A stretch of DNA of 64,000 nucleotides. It comes from Sphingomonas sp. AOB5. Its GTDB lineage: Bacteria > Pseudomonadota > Alphaproteobacteria > Sphingomonadales > Sphingomonadaceae. Below, one piece after another: positions 43,808 through 54,496 of the stretch. The notes under the pieces were generated by a model. It worked only from the letters and a program-made list of their open reading frames with translations, had not been told where the DNA came from and searched no databases. The stretch covers positions 1 through 64,000 of the forward strand of contig NZ_JARNTV010000020.1 in the NCBI RefSeq assembly GCF_029433115.1. The letters are read 5' to 3'. The first letter of the stretch is position 1. Every line of letters begins with the position of its first letter. The position numbers were made by a program, and so were the translations under genes.

Positions 43808-45001
43808 TCAGTTGCCCTTGGCGGGTCCGCCCATGGCGGTGCCGGTCTGGCGATCCTGGATCGCGACCAGATACTCACCGTCCTGCAGGAACGGGATCGG
43901 GTTGACCGCCTTACCGTCGACGCGGACTTCATAGTGAAGGTGGCTGCCGGTCGAACGGCCGGTCGAGCCCATCAGGCCGATCAGCTGGCCGCGCTTCACG
44001 CGGGTGTTCGCCGGAACGATGATCTTCGAAAGATGGCCATAGCGGGTCTGGATGCCGCGGCCGTGATTGATCTCGACCAGATTGCCGTAGCCGCCATAGC
44101 GGCCCGAGCGGCCGACGACGCCATCGGCGGTCGCATAGATCGGGGTGCCGATCGCGCCGGGGATATCCACGCCGGCATGCATCGCGGCGGTGCCGCGGAA
44201 CGGATCGGAACGCACGCCAAAGCTGCTGGTGAACTGGATATTGTCGACCGGCTGCATCGAAGGGATCGAAATCACGGTCTGCTCGAGCGTATCGAGACGG
44301 CGCCAGGTGACGAAGAGCGAGCGGAACTGCGCATCGGCTTCGGCGGTCGCAGCGCCCTCGTCGTTATCGACTTCCTCGAACGGGCCGCCCATGCCGCCCT
44401 GCACGATGGCCGGAACGTAGCGATTGGGGTCGAGGCCGAGGCGGCGGATCTGCGCCGCGGTCTGTTCGAACCGGGCTTCGCCGGTGGCGCGGGCCTGAGC
44501 TGCGAGAACGACCTGACGGGCTTCGAGCTTGCGCAGCGGCTCGAGCACTTCCTCGGTCAGCGCGCTGGTCTTGAGATGGGTGTCGGAGGGGATTTCACGG
44601 GTGACCTTGGAACGGTCGCCCTCGCCGGTGGCGGTCAGCTTGATCAGTTCCTGGCGGGCTTCGACGCGATCGGCGTGGATCTTGGCGGCCTGCTTGGCGG
44701 CTTCGACGTCCGCCTGCATCTGATCGACCTGGGCGCGCATCTTTTCCATCTGCGCTTCGGGGGTCGATGCCTCGCCGGTAATGCCGCTCAGCGAGACGAC
44801 GCCGACCATCGCCTGAGCGACGCCATAGCTGGAGAAGACGATCGCGATGCCGGCGACGCCAGCCAGCACAGCCTGGGTACGGCCGGCGATGCTGAAGCGG
44901 CGCAGATCGCGGCCGTCATGGAAAATGAAATCGCGCGTCGTGAAGAATTCGCGGAACCGGGCGCCGAGAGACGCGTTCTTGTTGTTCGAAGCGTTAGCCA
45001 T
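43808..45001 (-). CDS. M23-family peptidase with membrane anchor and coiled coil
   Basis: A 397-residue protein: a cytoplasmic N-terminus, one membrane helix (about 45-70), a long coiled coil (QMEKMRAQVDQMQADVEAAKQAA and on) and a C-terminal LytM/M23 domain with zinc motifs HAGVDIP and HLHYEVRVDG. M23 enzymes cut peptide crosslinks in peptidoglycan. Both zinc motifs are intact, so it may be catalytic rather than an EnvC-type activator. The ATG at 45001 is preceded by GGGGAA. Confidence 0.88.
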   Translation of the reverse strand: MANASNNKNASLGARFREFFTTRDFIFHDGRDLRRFSIAGRTQAVLAGVAGIAIVFSSYGVAQAMVGVVSLSGITGEASTPEAQMEKMRAQVDQMQADVEAAKQAAKIHADRVEARQELIKLTATGEGDRSKVTREIPSDTHLKTSALTEEVLEPLRKLEARQVVLAAQARATGEARFEQTAAQIRRLGLDPNRYVPAIVQGGMGGPFEEVDNDEGAATAEADAQFRSLFVTWRRLDTLEQTVISIPSMQPVDNIQFTSSFGVRSDPFRGTAAMHAGVDIPGAIGTPIYATADGVVGRSGRYGGYGNLVEINHGRGIQTRYGHLSKIIVPANTRVKRGQLIGLMGSTGRSTGSHLHYEVRVDGKAVNPIPFLQDGEYLVAIQDRQTGTAMGGPAKGN

Positions 45002-49179: not shown

Positions 49180-49359
49180 ATGAAACGCCCTGCATCTTCT
49201 CCTGATGAAGCGCCCGGTTACCGGGTGCAAGCACCGCGACAGGGCGATGCCATCGGGCTGGCGCTGCGCGATGCCTATGAGCAGGATCTGGGCCTCCCCG
49301 AAGACATGGCCGCGATGCTCCGGCGACTGAACGGCGCCACCACCCGTCAGTACGGCTAA
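49180..49359 (+). CDS. nepR: NepR-family anti-sigma factor, first copy
   Basis: A 59-residue protein with the NepR core IGLALRDAYEQDLGLPEDMAAML followed by RRLN, preceded by a disordered Pro-rich start. NepR binds EcfG and blocks it until phosphorylated PhyR takes its place. It is convergent with ecfG, and a shared terminator lies between them. A second copy lies at 51486. No EcfG-type promoter was found in front of this copy, unlike the second. Confidence 0.8.
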   Translation: MKRPASSPDEAPGYRVQAPRQGDAIGLALRDAYEQDLGLPEDMAAMLRRLNGATTRQYG

Positions 49360-49437: not shown

Positions 49438-50094
49438 TCAGCGTTCGCGGCTGAGATCGTCGACTTCGCCCATGATCGTGTCGAGCGCGCTCTTGCCGCC
49501 AGGATTGGCCGGGTGCGACTGGCGCGAGGGAAGCTGGCCCTCGCTCAGCAACTGCTCGAGCGCGACGCGACCGCGTGCCACGCGGCTCTTGATCGTGCCG
49601 ACGGCAACGCCGCAAATCTCGGCTGCTTCCTCATAGGCAAAGCCGCCTGCGCCGACCAGGATCAGCGCCTCGCGCTGCGGCTGGGGCAGATGGAGCAACG
49701 CGCGTTGCATGTCGGTCAGCTCGATATGCCGGTCCTGGCTGGCGGGCGCCGCAAGGATGCGGTCCGCGACCAGATCGTCCCACTCGCCCTTGAAGCGCGC
49801 GCGGCGCATTTGGCTGAGATAGAGATTGCGCAGGATGATGAAGGTCCAGGCCCGCATGTTGGTGCCGGCCTGGAACCGCTTGCGCGCGGCCCATGCCTTC
49901 AGCAGCGTTTCCTGCACCAGATCGTCGGCGGTATCGCGATTTCCCGACAGCGAGCGGCCAAAGGCGCGCAGATGCGGGATGACGATCGCAAGCTGTTGCT
50001 TGAATTCGGGATCGGAAAGCGAGACGTGCTCCACCGGAGCCTCGTCGTGCGATCCTTCCTCAGCTGAATCATCCGTATGTTCGGATTCAGTCAT
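49438..50094 (-). CDS. ecfG: General stress response sigma factor EcfG
   Basis: A 218-residue ECF sigma factor. Region 2: LVQETLLKAWAARKRFQAGTNMRAWTFIILRNLYLSQMRR. Region 4: LPQPQREALILVGAGGFAYEEAAEICGVAVGTIKSRVARGR. The acidic N-terminus (TESEHTDDSAEEGSHDE) is longer than usual. The context with phyR and nepR defines it as EcfG, which recognises GGAAC-N17-GTT promoters. The ATG at 50094 follows ACGGGGT. An upstream in-frame start at 50172 is considered less likely. Confidence 0.93.
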   Translation of the reverse strand: MTESEHTDDSAEEGSHDEAPVEHVSLSDPEFKQQLAIVIPHLRAFGRSLSGNRDTADDLVQETLLKAWAARKRFQAGTNMRAWTFIILRNLYLSQMRRARFKGEWDDLVADRILAAPASQDRHIELTDMQRALLHLPQPQREALILVGAGGFAYEEAAEICGVAVGTIKSRVARGRVALEQLLSEGQLPSRQSHPANPGGKSALDTIMGEVDDLSRER

Positions 50095-50405: not shown

Positions 50406-51209
50406 TCAGCCGTTGGCGGGAACCGTTGCCTGATCGAAGAACAGCGCCTGCGCGATGGTGGTCTTCACCGTCTCGCGCTGGAAGGGCTTGGTGATCAGGA
50501 AGGTGGGTTCCGGACGCTCGCCGGTGAGCAGGCGTTCGGGGAAGGCGGTGATGAAGATCACCGGCACGCTGAACTCGGCGAGGATGTCCTTCACCGCGTC
50601 GATGCCCGAGCTGTCATCGGCCAGCTGGATATCGGCGAGCACCAGGCCCGGCCGCTCTTCCATCGCCAGCGCGACCGCTTCGTCACGGGTAACGGCGACA
50701 CCGGTCACTTCATGGCCCATGTCGCGAACGATGGTTTCCAGATCCATCGCGATCAGCGGCTCGTCCTCGATCACCAGCACGCGCGTGCGCGTCTGCGATT
50801 CGATTTCGGAGATGGCGTCGGCGACCAGACCCGAGACGTCGTTAGAATCCTTGCCGATCAGATAGCCGGTATCCTCGATGCTGAAGCCTTCCATCGCGGT
50901 GAGCAGCAGCGCCTGACGCGACAGCGGCGCGAGACGGGCGAGACGCTTGCGCGCGATCGCTTCCGGCTCGCTCGGCTGATCCTCGCCCGAATCGCTCTCT
51001 TCGAGATGGGTGGTCTGCCAGATCGCCTGGAAGGTACGATACAGACCCAGCCGCGGTTCGATGTCGCGCGGAAATTCTTCCGGTGCTGCCACGATCGCCT
51101 CGAGCGAGGCGCGGACATAGCGGTCGCCCTCACCCTGGCTTCCGGTAAGCGCGCGCGCGTAGCGGCGAAGGAACGGCAGGTGCGGTGCGAGTTGCTGACC
51201 AAGCGACAT
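50406..51209 (-). CDS. phyR: General stress response regulator PhyR
   Basis: A 267-residue regulator. The N-terminal half mimics an ECF sigma factor (regions 2 and 4, residues 5-140) but cannot bind DNA productively. The C-terminal receiver has the acidic pocket IEDE (147-150), phospho-acceptor D193 in LADIQLADDSSG, and K241 in ITKPF. The FITAFPE segment (219-225) is a FATGUY-type motif typical of PhyR receivers. On phosphorylation it captures NepR and releases EcfG. The ATG at 51209 gives the normal family length. It is divergent from nepR2-phyP. Confidence 0.95.
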   Translation of the reverse strand: MSLGQQLAPHLPFLRRYARALTGSQGEGDRYVRASLEAIVAAPEEFPRDIEPRLGLYRTFQAIWQTTHLEESDSGEDQPSEPEAIARKRLARLAPLSRQALLLTAMEGFSIEDTGYLIGKDSNDVSGLVADAISEIESQTRTRVLVIEDEPLIAMDLETIVRDMGHEVTGVAVTRDEAVALAMEERPGLVLADIQLADDSSGIDAVKDILAEFSVPVIFITAFPERLLTGERPEPTFLITKPFQRETVKTTIAQALFFDQATVPANG

Positions 51210-51319
51210 AAGCGATTGTTTCTCCCTCGGAACGTTCCGGCTTGTCGCGCCGGCGAACCGTCTTTGCAAATGTTTCGTGCGGACCGAAGGATACCCCCCG
51301 CGGTTTTCGCATCGCATGT

Positions 51320-51344: not shown

Positions 51345-51485
51345 TCATCGCATAAGCCGCTTCGTGTGGCTTTCGCACCGCCGGGCACTTGCGTCCGGCG
51401 GCGTTAATTATATTTTCCGGTCGCGCTTGCGGCCGGGGATGGTCGACAATAGTCCGGGGGAATGGTGCGTTCCGCAAATGATCCG

Positions 51486-51632
51486 ATGAAGAAAACGCCA
51501 TCAAACAAGGGCGGAGGCGGAAGCGATCGCACCGGTAAAGCGGTGGGAGACGCCTTGCGCGAAGCCTATGACGAGGCAATCGGCGAGGCGATTCCGGCAG
51601 AAATGCTCGATCTGCTGAAGAAGCTCGACTAG
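51486..51632 (+). CDS. NepR-family anti-sigma factor, second copy
   Basis: A 48-residue NepR: a short basic, Gly-rich start then the core VGDALREAYDEAIGEAIPAE ending in MLDLLKKLD. It lacks the C-terminal tail of the first copy. It lies 9 nt before the phyP-like gene and is co-transcribed with it, and is divergent from phyR, as nepR is in several alphaproteobacteria. This copy may be the feedback-controlled one, since an EcfG-type promoter precedes it. Confidence 0.8.
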   Translation: MKKTPSNKGGGGSDRTGKAVGDALREAYDEAIGEAIPAEMLDLLKKLD

Positions 51633-51641
51633 CCCTTCATA

Positions 51642-53216
51642 ATGGAAAAGCTGGATCTTCCGCCGCTAGGCCAAGGGCCGGCGGCGGCGTTTGCGCGCAT
51701 GCCGACGGGCGCGAAGGTATTCCTGATTCTGGTGGGCGCCCTGCTCCCGCTCGCGCTGATCGCGCTGTTCACCACGCTCCAGACCACCCGCAGCGCTGAC
51801 GAGGAAGCGCGCGCGCGGCTGAATGCCGTGGTCAAGGAAAGCTCCGGCGTGCTGGCCAATGTGCTGGCCAATCATGTCGGCGAGTTGCGCGAAGGCCTTG
51901 CGGCGCTGGAACGCGACCGCGGCGATGCGCCGAGTTGCACCCGGCTGGCCGGGGCCTTTGCGTCGCTCTCCGAAGGCGGGACACGGTTCGCGATCACCGA
52001 CGGCCGCGGCGCGGTGCTGTGCGGCCAGCGGCTCGCGATCACCGGCGTGGCGGTGCTGAAGCCGGGCGAAGTCGATGCCGCGCTGGTCGACAAGGGGCTG
52101 GCGCTGCGGGTCGGCGGGCAGTCCGGCGCCAGTGCCACCGCTTATTATCCCGTCGCCGCGCTGGCCACGCTCGGCCGCCCCAGCGGCTTTGTTCCCGAAT
52201 ATGGTTCGGCGCTGGTCAAGGCCGATGGCGGATCGCTGACGTTGCGTACGCTCGGGGATGGCCCCCTTACCCGCCGCGAGACGATGCGTGCGCAGCTCGG
52301 CGTCGACGATCTGATCCTGCAGATGTCGATGCCGGGCGCGCCGATCGCGTCGCCGCTGATGATCGCCACCGTGCTGCTGGTGCTGATGTGGATCGCCGCC
52401 TCGGCGATCGGCTGGTTCGTGGTCGACCGGCTGCTGATCCGCCCGCTGCGCCGCCTGCGCCGCGTGGTGCGCGCCTATCAGCCGGGCGAAGTGATCGACC
52501 CCGCATTTTATGGCCACCTGCCCGCCGCCGAGATTCGCGAGCTGGGCGACACGTTCCGCGACATCAGCCGTACCGTGCAGCTTCACGAAGCCGATCTCGC
52601 CGAGGGACTGGTGCGCCAGACGCGGCTGACCCGCGAAGTGCATCACCGGGTGAAGAACAATCTGCAGGTCATTTCCAGCCTGATCAATTTCCACGCGCGC
52701 GGCGCCAAGGGGCCGGAAGCGAGCGAGGCCTACGCCTCGATCCAGCGCCGGGTCGACGCGCTCGCCGTGGTCCATCGGCACCATTATGCCGAGATGGAGG
52801 AAAATCGCGGGATCGAGCTGCGCCCGGTGATCGGCGAACTGGCATCGAACATCCGCGCCACCGCCCCGCCTCAAGCCGCCGGGATCGGCATCACGCTGGA
52901 AGTCGATCCGCTGCTGGTGACGCAGGATACCGCGGTCGCAGTCGCCTTCCTGATCACCGAGATCGTCGAGCTGGCGATCACCTGCAATCCGGCAGCACAG
53001 GTCCGCATCTCCGCCAAGGCGCTGCCCGAGGGCGACCGGGCGGTGGTGCGGGTCAGCTCACCGGCGCTGGTCGACAGCACCGAGCTGCAGACGTTCCTCG
53101 AGAACCGCTATTCGCGCGTGATGACCGGCCTTGCGCGGCAGCTGCGTACCCAGCTTCATCACGATCCGCTGACCGGTGCCTATGAGGCAAGTATCGCCGT
53201 AAACGGACGCCCCTGA
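51642..53216 (+). CDS. phyP: PhyP-like HisKA_2 sensor protein with degenerate ATPase domain
   Basis: A 524-residue membrane sensor. It has helix 1 (about 25-45), a periplasmic domain (46-240), helix 2 (about 243-265), a HAMP-like linker, and an HisKA_2 box EVHHRVKNNLQVISSLI with candidate His335. The ATPase part is degenerate: the N-box reads LITEIVELAITCNP without the usual EL-x2-NA-K pattern, and no DxGxG box is seen. In Sphingomonas the PhyP protein at this locus acts as a phosphatase of PhyR and negative regulator. The loss of ATP-binding motifs here agrees with phosphatase rather than kinase activity. Confidence 0.8.
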   Translation: MEKLDLPPLGQGPAAAFARMPTGAKVFLILVGALLPLALIALFTTLQTTRSADEEARARLNAVVKESSGVLANVLANHVGELREGLAALERDRGDAPSCTRLAGAFASLSEGGTRFAITDGRGAVLCGQRLAITGVAVLKPGEVDAALVDKGLALRVGGQSGASATAYYPVAALATLGRPSGFVPEYGSALVKADGGSLTLRTLGDGPLTRRETMRAQLGVDDLILQMSMPGAPIASPLMIATVLLVLMWIAASAIGWFVVDRLLIRPLRRLRRVVRAYQPGEVIDPAFYGHLPAAEIRELGDTFRDISRTVQLHEADLAEGLVRQTRLTREVHHRVKNNLQVISSLINFHARGAKGPEASEAYASIQRRVDALAVVHRHHYAEMEENRGIELRPVIGELASNIRATAPPQAAGIGITLEVDPLLVTQDTAVAVAFLITEIVELAITCNPAAQVRISAKALPEGDRAVVRVSSPALVDSTELQTFLENRYSRVMTGLARQLRTQLHHDPLTGAYEASIAVNGRP

Positions 53217-53296: not shown

Positions 53297-53321
53297 GGAA
53301 CCCCGGAGCGCATTGACCGTT
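53297..53321 (+). promoter_or_regulatory. EcfG-type promoter downstream of phyP
   Basis: GGAAC (53297-53301), 16-nt spacer and CGTT (53318-53321), a perfect fit to the EcfG consensus. The preceding 40 nt are AT-rich. Transcription would begin near 53327-53330 and run into the two-hairpin segment ending at 53430. This is the best EcfG site in the window. Confidence 0.75.
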
Positions 53322-53326
53322 TTACA

Positions 53327-53430
53327 CTTCGGATAGTGACCTTTTGCCCCCCCGCTCTCGCTATCCAAGACATGGGCCCGGAAGCGTCAACCCTCCCCCC
53401 CCCGGTGACGCTTCCGGGCCTAACACTTTT
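53327..53430 (+). ncRNA. Candidate stress-induced small RNA with two C-rich loops
   Basis: The segment has no coding potential and two hairpins. Hairpin 1: GGATAG (53331-53336) pairs with CTATCC (53361-53366), loop containing seven consecutive C (53347-53353). Hairpin 2: GGCCCGGAAGCGTCA (53375-53389) pairs perfectly with 53406-53420, loop containing nine consecutive C (53395-53403), followed by TAACACTTTT. The second is a strong rho-independent terminator. C-rich loops in alphaproteobacterial small RNAs can pair with G-rich Shine-Dalgarno sequences. A perfect EcfG promoter lies 6 nt upstream. It may belong to the Rfam suhB or another known family, which could not be checked. Confidence 0.65.
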
Positions 53431-53548
53431 CCAGACCATCGATATCCGATCCGCCGTTCCGGGCTGCGCTTTCGTTCGCTCGCGGAACGATTTGGCGCGT
53501 CCGGGCTTTCTCCTCCCGACCGTTTCAACGGATCAGTGGAGACAAGAC

Positions 53549-53683
53549 ATGCGTAAGATCCTGACCCTCGCCGCGCTCGGCTGCGCGTTCGCCATTTCGG
53601 CCTGCAACACCATCGAAGGCGTCGGTCGCGACGTTTCGTCGGCAGGCGATACCGTCGCCCGGACCGCCGACGACGCCAAGTGA
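53549..53683 (+). CDS. Entericidin A/B-like small lipoprotein
   Basis: A 44-residue lipoprotein: signal peptide with lipobox AISAC (cysteine 19) and a mature 26-residue part NTIEGVGRDVSSAGDTVART that matches entericidins. Entericidins are small membrane lipoproteins induced by stress in stationary phase, thought to form an antidote/toxin pair in E. coli. It may be transcribed by read-through of the upstream EcfG promoter or from its own. A longer in-frame ORF from 53336 would cross the terminator hairpin and is rejected. Confidence 0.8.
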   Translation: MRKILTLAALGCAFAISACNTIEGVGRDVSSAGDTVARTADDAK

Positions 53684-53725: not shown

Positions 53726-54496
53726 TCAGGCCTCGGACTCGACCCGGCTCTCGCGCCGATTGCGGGTGAACTTGATGGCCACCAGCGCGAGGAAATAGAG
53801 ACAGCAGAGCGGTATCGCGAGCAGCAGCTGCGAACCGACATCCGGCGGGGTCAGCACCGCGGCGATCCCGAAGGCACCAACCACGGCATAGCGCCACGCG
53901 CCCTTGAGCTGTTCGTAGGTTACGATGCCGGCATGCTCAAGCAGCATCAGCAGCACCGGCAGCAGGAACGACAGCCCGAAGCCGAAGATGAACTGCATCA
54001 CGAACTTCAGATAGTCGTTTACGTCGGGCAGCGGCGTCTGGGTGACGCCAGTATCGCCCACTTGCCCCTGGAAGCTCAGCAGGAATTTCAACGCGGTCGG
54101 GATCGCGATGAAATAGGCCATCGCGGCGCCCGCGGCGAACAGCACCGGGGTCGCCAACAGGAATGGTAATAGCGCGCGCTTTTCCTTGCGATACAGGCCA
54201 GGCGCGACGAACTGCCACAGCTGATTGGCCACCACCGGAAAAGCGATCATCAGCGCCGCAAAGAAGGCGATCTTGATCTCGACGAGGAAGCCGCCGAACA
54301 CCTGCGTATTGATGATCGTCAGCTGGCCCGCGGCCTTTAGCGGGGCGACCAGAATCGCGAAGATGGATCGCGCGAAATACAGGCTGCCGGCAAATGCCAC
54401 CGCAAGCGCGAGGACGGACCAGAGCAGGCGGCGGCGCAGTTCGATCAGGTGATCGAGCAGCGGAGCTTGCGTGTCGTCGATCTCCGCGCCGCTCAC
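53726..54496 (-). CDS. tatC: Sec-independent protein translocase TatC
   Basis: A 256-residue protein with six membrane helices. It has the N-terminal LDHLIELRRRLLWS segment that recognises the twin-arginine signal, a conserved Glu in the first periplasmic-face region, and the FGFGLSFLLPVLL helix. It overlaps tatB by 4 nt. In sphingomonads the order tatA-tatB-tatC here is standard. A candidate Tat substrate (DUF1501) is encoded at 61.7 kb. Confidence 0.96.
   Translation of the reverse strand: MSGAEIDDTQAPLLDHLIELRRRLLWSVLALAVAFAGSLYFARSIFAILVAPLKAAGQLTIINTQVFGGFLVEIKIAFFAALMIAFPVVANQLWQFVAPGLYRKEKRALLPFLLATPVLFAAGAAMAYFIAIPTALKFLLSFQGQVGDTGVTQTPLPDVNDYLKFVMQFIFGFGLSFLLPVLLMLLEHAGIVTYEQLKGAWRYAVVGAFGIAAVLTPPDVGSQLLLAIPLCCLYFLALVAIKFTRNRRESRVESEA

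Follow-up and report, generated by a model that had tools for sequence, protein, structure and literature searches.

A stretch of about 100 nucleotides in the general stress response locus of Sphingomonas sp. AOB5, which lies directly downstream of an EcfG-type promoter and folds into two hairpins with C-rich loops, is very probably a real small RNA gene. In Alphaproteobacteria the general stress response is under the control of EcfG, which is studied in sphingomonads among other organisms. The initial annotation of this DNA had proposed such a gene, an observation that we judge to be correct and that promoter, covariation and synteny support at the sequence level. We consider it likely that the gene is transcribed by EcfG into a small RNA of ~100 nt that base-pairs in trans through its C loops and works much as GsrN does in Caulobacter crescentus; within this explanation, we infer the transcription by EcfG, the action in trans, the targets and the direction of regulation. 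A conserved RNA in the EcfG locus would provide a testable post-transcriptional arm, and it raises the question of whether control of the GsrN type was inherited from an ancestor or arose by convergence. The features, in coordinates of the window (the whole 64,000-nucleotide stretch of DNA that was analysed), are as follows.

49438..50094, - strand: ecfG, stress-response sigma factor (two-domain sigma-70 family; Pfam PF04542, PF08281; start codon presumed).
50406..51209, - strand: phyR (Pfam PF22029, PF22233 and PF00072 on the longer reading 50409-51287; start codon presumed).
51462..51632, + strand: nepR (Pfam PF18557, over the cut-off).
51642..53216, + strand: phyP-like HisKA_2/HWE sensor kinase gene (Pfam PF07568, PF07536).
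53297..53321, + strand: EcfG-type promoter GGAAC-N16-CGTT (from the sequence; conserved in same-genus copies and wider loci).
53327..53430, + strand: small RNA gene (probable start 6-7 bases past the -10 box, probable end past the U-rich tail; covariance model and covariation).
53331..53366, + strand: hairpin 1, a 9-bp stem with an 18-base loop containing GCCCCCCCGCUC (both-side changes at all 9 pairs among genera; pairing in 100% of cells).
53347..53353, + strand: C7 run in the 5' loop, proposed base-pairing seed (C-run conservation and computed unpaired probability).
53374..53421, + strand: hairpin 2, a 16-bp stem whose loop, CCCUCCCCCCCCC, is C-rich; probably the terminator and possibly a second, anti-Shine-Dalgarno-like seed (both-side changes at 15 of 16 pairs; pairing in 94.6% of cells).
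53484..53488, + strand: GGAAC -35-like element of the entericidin-like gene, separate from the RNA promoter (GGAAC-N15-17-CATT in 26/30 copies).
53549..53683, + strand: entericidin-like lipoprotein gene of 44 aa (Pfam PF08085, 6.4e-7).
53726..54496, - strand: tatC, the downstream syntenic marker (Pfam PF00902).

Relatives were searched with a query of 511 bases around the RNA. The RNA itself was matched in 35 of 36 same-genus relatives, with identity of up to 97-98%, and is the best-conserved part of the region in this comparison; the entericidin ORF, where matched separately, mostly showed 70-83% identity. The genome itself has a single copy of the RNA. Two alignments were built: A1 comprises the genome's own copy and 29 relatives, 30 in all of the 36 genomes in which the RNA was matched, and A3 comprises the window and 35 (hereafter the wider loci) of 40 loci picked to spread over genera, giving 36 copies in 14 genera. 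The two share eight genomes, the window and seven others.

Pfam confirmed the neighbours given in the initial annotation, which had placed the RNA between the phyP-like and entericidin-like genes of the general stress response locus. This address recurs: 26 of the 35 wider loci have ecfG, phyR and phyP matches upstream of the RNA (nepR was matched in fewer), and in 34 a tatC match follows downstream on the opposite strand. At the other nine loci no stress gene was matched in the stretch fetched; tatC is still there, and the promoter form is seen in eight. A 59-aa ORF at window positions 49180-49356 (+), convergent with ecfG, looks NepR-like by eye and has no Pfam match; at one of the other loci (L100) the best NepR match sits at the corresponding place.

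The promoter reads, from the sequence, as GGAAC at 53297-53301, a 16-base spacer and CGTT at 53318-53321, so that a perfect GGAAC-N16-CGTT does lead directly into the two hairpins, as had been claimed. By itself this string is not significant within the window: GGAAC and CGTT with a spacer of 16-17 occur twice against 0.67 expected, and 12 of 100 shuffles contained two or more. The promoter stands beyond chance because it is conserved in the same-genus copies, all 30 of which have GGAAC-N16-NGTT at the same place (26 CGTT, 4 TGTT in A1) around a spacer that varies while both boxes are kept. A looser form (GGAAC/A, spacer 15-18, N-G/A-TT) was met in 33 of the 35 wider loci, with -10 boxes of CGTT (26 loci), GGTT (3), AGTT (2) and TGTT (2); L068 and L097 are the only exceptions. 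Passages of a Sphingopyxis EcfG paper describe the -10 box as highly flexible (PMC7083833). A-rich tracts that resemble an upstream element stand directly before the -35 element, upstream of 53297 and in many relatives. The second perfect GGAAC-N16-CGTT string of the window is at 44953-44977 (+).

The RNA is strongly structured. A covariance model matched it at 53324-53432 with 125.1 bits, and the fold of 53297-53450 has an energy of -56.3 kcal/mol against -37.1 (sd 3.9) for shuffled sequences, a z of -4.9 that none of 200 shuffles equalled. In hairpin 1, positions 53331-53339 pair with 53358-53366 (nine pairs, one of them G-U), and in hairpin 2, positions 53374-53389 pair with 53406-53421 (15 Watson-Crick pairs and one G-U) around a 16-base loop containing CCC-T-CCCCCCCCC, which is CCC-U-C9 as RNA. 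The loops of seven and nine consecutive C that had been read from the sequence are thus both present, the former at 53347-53353 and the latter in the hairpin 2 loop. The 15-bp terminator stem described at the same time agrees with the 15 Watson-Crick pairs of hairpin 2; its terminating strength is the less certain part of that description, given a tail that is moderately U-rich and a simple terminator scan that found no terminator here, the latter because the scan allows loops of 3-8 only. Among 30 copies the tail past hairpin 2 averages 5.7 T in 12 bases; the 60 bases that follow have 2.4 per 12.

Across the 36 copies of A3 the 5' run consists of 6-9 C in all except L068, which has 4; within A1 it is seven in 23 of 30 copies, and that of L013 is eight. 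Its computed unpaired probability averages 0.86 over the 36 copies (lowest 0.5; window 0.88), so by this computation the C runs are exposed. The 3' half of the RNA contains CCUCC in 27 of 36 copies.

Alignment of the locus across sphingomonads, set beforehand as a refuting test, revealed that promoter and hairpins are both conserved in relatives. In A1, 10 of 25 stem pairs have changed on both sides, compared with 4.6 in shuffles, and 97.3% of cells are paired, values that none of 500 shuffles reached; the number of further pair types was reached by three of 500. In A3, an alignment fitted to the model and hence favouring the structure, both-side changes occur in 24 of 25 pairs (shuffles 11.4), with 96.6% of cells paired, and the 132 both-side cells compare with 28 in shuffles (0/500) and at most 25 with slid partners. 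In some genera (L065-L067 and L071; L299) the whole stem of hairpin 1 has been replaced while the C loop and the promoter were retained. These patterns indicate that promoter and structure are kept by selection.

The same patterns bear on two other readings of the stretch. It could be a mere intrinsic terminator of phyP, its second hairpin decorative and its promoter coincidental, as its location between convergent phyP and tatC in 25 of 35 loci would allow. We regard this as highly improbable: the promoter is present in 30/30 same-genus copies, covariation of the stems leaves intact both the C loop and its distance to the -10 box, the RNA is retained in nine loci without an upstream phyP match, and those weak model matches that truly resemble terminators are without promoter. 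Alternatively, the stretch could be coding sequence, since the ORF list does include one at 53336-53683 that runs in frame into the entericidin gene. The C runs differ by single bases among relatives, an indel pattern that contradicts coding, and the stems covary; we give this reading practically no credence.

The initial annotation had also set a small RNA against transcription that simply reads through into the entericidin-like gene. If so, the two hairpins would be a structured 5' leader that, under EcfG, regulates this gene in cis at the level of translation or stability. Proximity speaks for such a leader, as motif-based detection placed an entericidin-like ORF at most 600 bases downstream of the RNA in 28/30 and 29/35 loci (overlapping sets), and so do the modest U tract of hairpin 2 and the entericidin promoter of the window, which has GGAACG but lacks CATT at that spacing and so is without a clear -10. 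On the other side, the entericidin gene is preceded by a GGAAC-N15-17-CATT of its own in 26 of 30 copies, and the distance from RNA to ORF varies widely. The same motif-based detection found no entericidin-like ORF after the RNA in 2/30 and 6/35 loci, and in five of the latter six a tatC match lies just 28-71 bases away. With the gene having its own element in most copies and the RNA persisting where no ORF is detected, a leader is in general unlikely, and we favour a separate small RNA. In four loci of one genus (L065, L066, L067, L071) the ATG is only 18-22 bases past the RNA, and the RNA there may therefore double as an entericidin leader.

At E <= 0.01, a covariance model built from A1 (R1) matched 85 of the order's 297 genomes, which belong to 17 of 77 genera. 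Five weak matches (genomes G038, G197, G298, G311 and G331; loci L072-L076) are unrelated hairpins without promoter and were dropped. The remaining RNA-bearing genomes, 80 of 297 with E <= 4e-8, all fall within the window's family; those fetched were inspected and the others rest on scores, and one (G263) has a partial copy at a contig end. A second covariance model (R2), run on 40 chosen genomes that were mostly without R1 match, matched 22 at E <= 0.05 and yielded four convincing new copies (L298, L299, L300, L312), two of them in further genera. Since R2 adds copies, the absence of the RNA from many genera of the family is partly due to sensitivity. In a scan of the class, R1 matched 13 of 389 genomes; as candidates for members outside the family, ten class-scan matches proved chance-like, and no GGAAC-type promoter leads into any of them in the same orientation. 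When named genomes were scanned with a pattern, at least 120 stretches matched; the 80 matches listed are chiefly from Sphingomonas, and also from Sphingomicrobium, Sphingosinicella, Stakelama, Hephaestia, Parasphingopyxis and Sphingorhabdus.

Among described RNAs, Rfam offers no family for this one. The proposed check against suhB and other small RNA families was run, and at the gathering score only a tRNA was found in the whole window; the RNA stretch itself had four subthreshold matches, all chance-like (best Scr3202, 29.9 bits against 52, E 0.014) and none of them suhB. The SuhB RNA of Sphingopyxis granuli TFA, likewise a sphingomonad small RNA, differs in that it reportedly concerns catabolite repression of tetralin degradation, going by its title. 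Titles and abstract openings in the literature searched reported no EcfG-dependent small RNA of a sphingomonad; an unnamed entry in a table of a supplement or of a further paper, such as the TFA transcription-start study, is possible. The terms "small RNA" and "sRNA" are absent from the main text of the EcfG papers on Sphingomonas melonis Fr1 and Sphingopyxis granuli TFA (PMC6599016, PMC7083833). Parts of a study of Rhizobiales describe the anti-Shine-Dalgarno RNAs SmelA075 and SmelA099, with conserved CCUCCUCCC loops on variable stems (PMC3927594). The present RNA resembles these in its C-rich, anti-Shine-Dalgarno-like loops on variable stems (CCUCC in 27/36 copies), whereas, as far as that account goes, the Rhizobiales RNAs with CCUCCUCCC loops have three or four hairpins with similar loops instead of two, and the pure C run of the first loop and the EcfG promoter are features of the present RNA.

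The nearest studied RNA is GsrN, which is marked by EcfG-dependent expression and by cleavage into a stable 5' isoform. Passages of the paper on it (PMC5869019) describe GsrN (CCNA_R0081) as a sigma-T-dependent RNA of ~100 nt with a terminator at its 3' end, in which six C in an exposed 5' loop pair with G-rich sites in mRNA leaders; pairing of the C loop with the katG leader was demonstrated by compensatory mutation, and KatG expression is raised. Outside C. crescentus itself, by the same account, ecfG, nepR and phyR are typically close to the predicted homologues, and a figure legend there gives no apparent gsrN-like gene for Erythrobacter litoralis. The sphingomonad RNA shares this anatomy: a near-consensus EcfG/sigma-T promoter lies directly upstream (30/30 copies; looser form in 33/35), an exposed 5' loop has six or more C in 35 of 36 copies, ecfG and phyR are near (26/35 loci, with nepR matched in fewer), and the RNA is likewise ~100 nt with a probable terminator hairpin at the 3' end.

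For a direct comparison we assembled GsrN-like RNAs by an EcfG promoter followed by a C run and GACT, a motif that is the complement of the target sites in Table 1 of PMC5869019 and not the GsrN sequence itself; the loop deduced from those sites is GCCCCCCGACUUGA. An earlier pattern of six C followed by G, which cannot match the C7 of the window, had matched 18 of 389 genomes, close to its reversed control. The C run with GACT was matched in one of 80 genomes and led to a family of GsrN-like RNAs in at least 11 of 40 genomes of one family (exact motif required), that of G691, presumably the Caulobacteraceae. These RNAs, which we take for GsrN homologues, have a phyR match at 9 of 11 loci. The distance from -10 box to C run is 23-27 bases in the sphingomonad RNA and 23-24 in the GsrN-like RNAs, for which promoter and C run were search criteria and the distance was left free between 8 and 38.

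These similarities would be expected if the RNA were a true GsrN orthologue, already present in the common ancestor of the Caulobacteraceae and Sphingomonadaceae and having since lost an inner hairpin, a view that is compatible with our best explanation. Besides the shared distance between -10 box and C run (promoter and C run being common by construction of the search) and the phyR gene that adjoins 9 of 11 GsrN-like loci, the similarity of the 5' segments argues for it, being reached by only one of 1000 column shuffles among ten and sixteen hand-chosen representatives. However, R2 on the GsrN-like loci reached a best E of 1.2e-4 and R3 on the sphingomonad loci one of 0.024, both borderline and both aligning the GsrN-like C loop with hairpin 2, the wrong register, instead of hairpin 1, and the class scan with R1 did not find the GsrN-like locus of G691. 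The GsrN-like loci are, moreover, predicted to have an inner hairpin beside the C loop and a long outer stem, which are absent from the sphingomonad consensus. Membership in the GsrN family is not established because of the missing inner hairpin, the borderline cross-matches in the wrong register and the failure of R1 at G691, and we hold orthology to be possible but rather doubtful. Further differences are that the C run continues with GCUC or GCAG here and with GACUUGA in GsrN, that the terminator loop of the sphingomonad RNA is also C-rich, and that the 21 katG leaders have no G run near the start. By anatomy, promoter and address the RNA is GsrN-like and may be a counterpart of GsrN, with common descent unproven. 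If the two are homologous, a post-transcriptional arm would be an early core part of the alphaproteobacterial stress response; if they are not, two lineages would have independently put a C-run RNA at nearly the same promoter distance in the same kind of locus.

We propose that EcfG makes the ~100-nt RNA under stress, that hairpin 1 presents an unpaired GCCCCCCCG loop, and that hairpin 2 serves as terminator and offers a second C-rich, anti-Shine-Dalgarno-like loop. The C loops would bind a set of mRNAs by pairing at G-rich stretches or ribosome-binding sites, and this may alter their translation or stability, up or down depending on the target. More broadly, the RNA could be a Sphingomonadaceae-wide stress riboregulator with two different pairing loops, a GsrN-like C7 and an anti-Shine-Dalgarno loop, which would give EcfG a post-transcriptional arm with two classes of target; for this wider view our confidence falls somewhat short of even. 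The C-rich loops had been suggested to mask Shine-Dalgarno sequences and so to give the sigma factor a repressing arm. GsrN, the nearest studied RNA, raises KatG, and no conserved target was found here; by analogy, activation, as by GsrN with katG, may be as likely as repression by the putative arm.

No conserved target emerged from the katG leaders, the AGCGGGGGG search or the mreC copies. By analogy with GsrN, katG was considered and is not supported: none of 21 leaders (L279 was left out for its short contig flank) carries a run of at least four G at most 40 bases from the start, and none has a 7-base complement of the C loop within 200 bases of it. G5-G6 runs do occur in four of the 22 leaders that include L279, ~190-325 bases before the profile match. 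A search for AGCGGGGGG ran on 13 genomes, and 20 regions around some of the matches were looked at. In the genome itself and eight of the same genus, AGCGGGGGG at most 28 bases before an ATG was matched 81 times and its reverse 39 times, although this control does not do justice to strand and codon bias. One of the four AGCGGGGGG places in the genome itself is at a clear gene start, that of mreC; a second possible gene start is in a relative (L363). The mreC start (position 1266 of L348) is preceded by AGCGGGGGGAC, which is complementary to the 5' loop. Among 19 same-genus copies (the genome's own and 18 of 20 others with a match, two partial matches being left out), the exact motif is not kept, a G run of five or more near the start is present in seven, the genome's own included, and the computed pairing is energetically no stronger than with reversed leaders. 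The sequences thus suggest that mreC is a patchy lead and not a conserved target.

Hairpins with C-rich loops were also seen elsewhere. Four loci in other genera (L303, L304, L305, L307) have hairpins with CCUCCC-like loops and no EcfG promoter after a peroxiredoxin gene. In all four this gene ends in what reads as one shared AhpC-like C-terminus (Pfam AhpC-TSA was tested on L303 only), and the hairpins could possibly be a 3'UTR-derived RNA. A stretch of two hairpins from another family of the order (L302), for which no EcfG promoter was found, has CCCUCCCCCC in both loops and follows a gene ending in DVKYNF.
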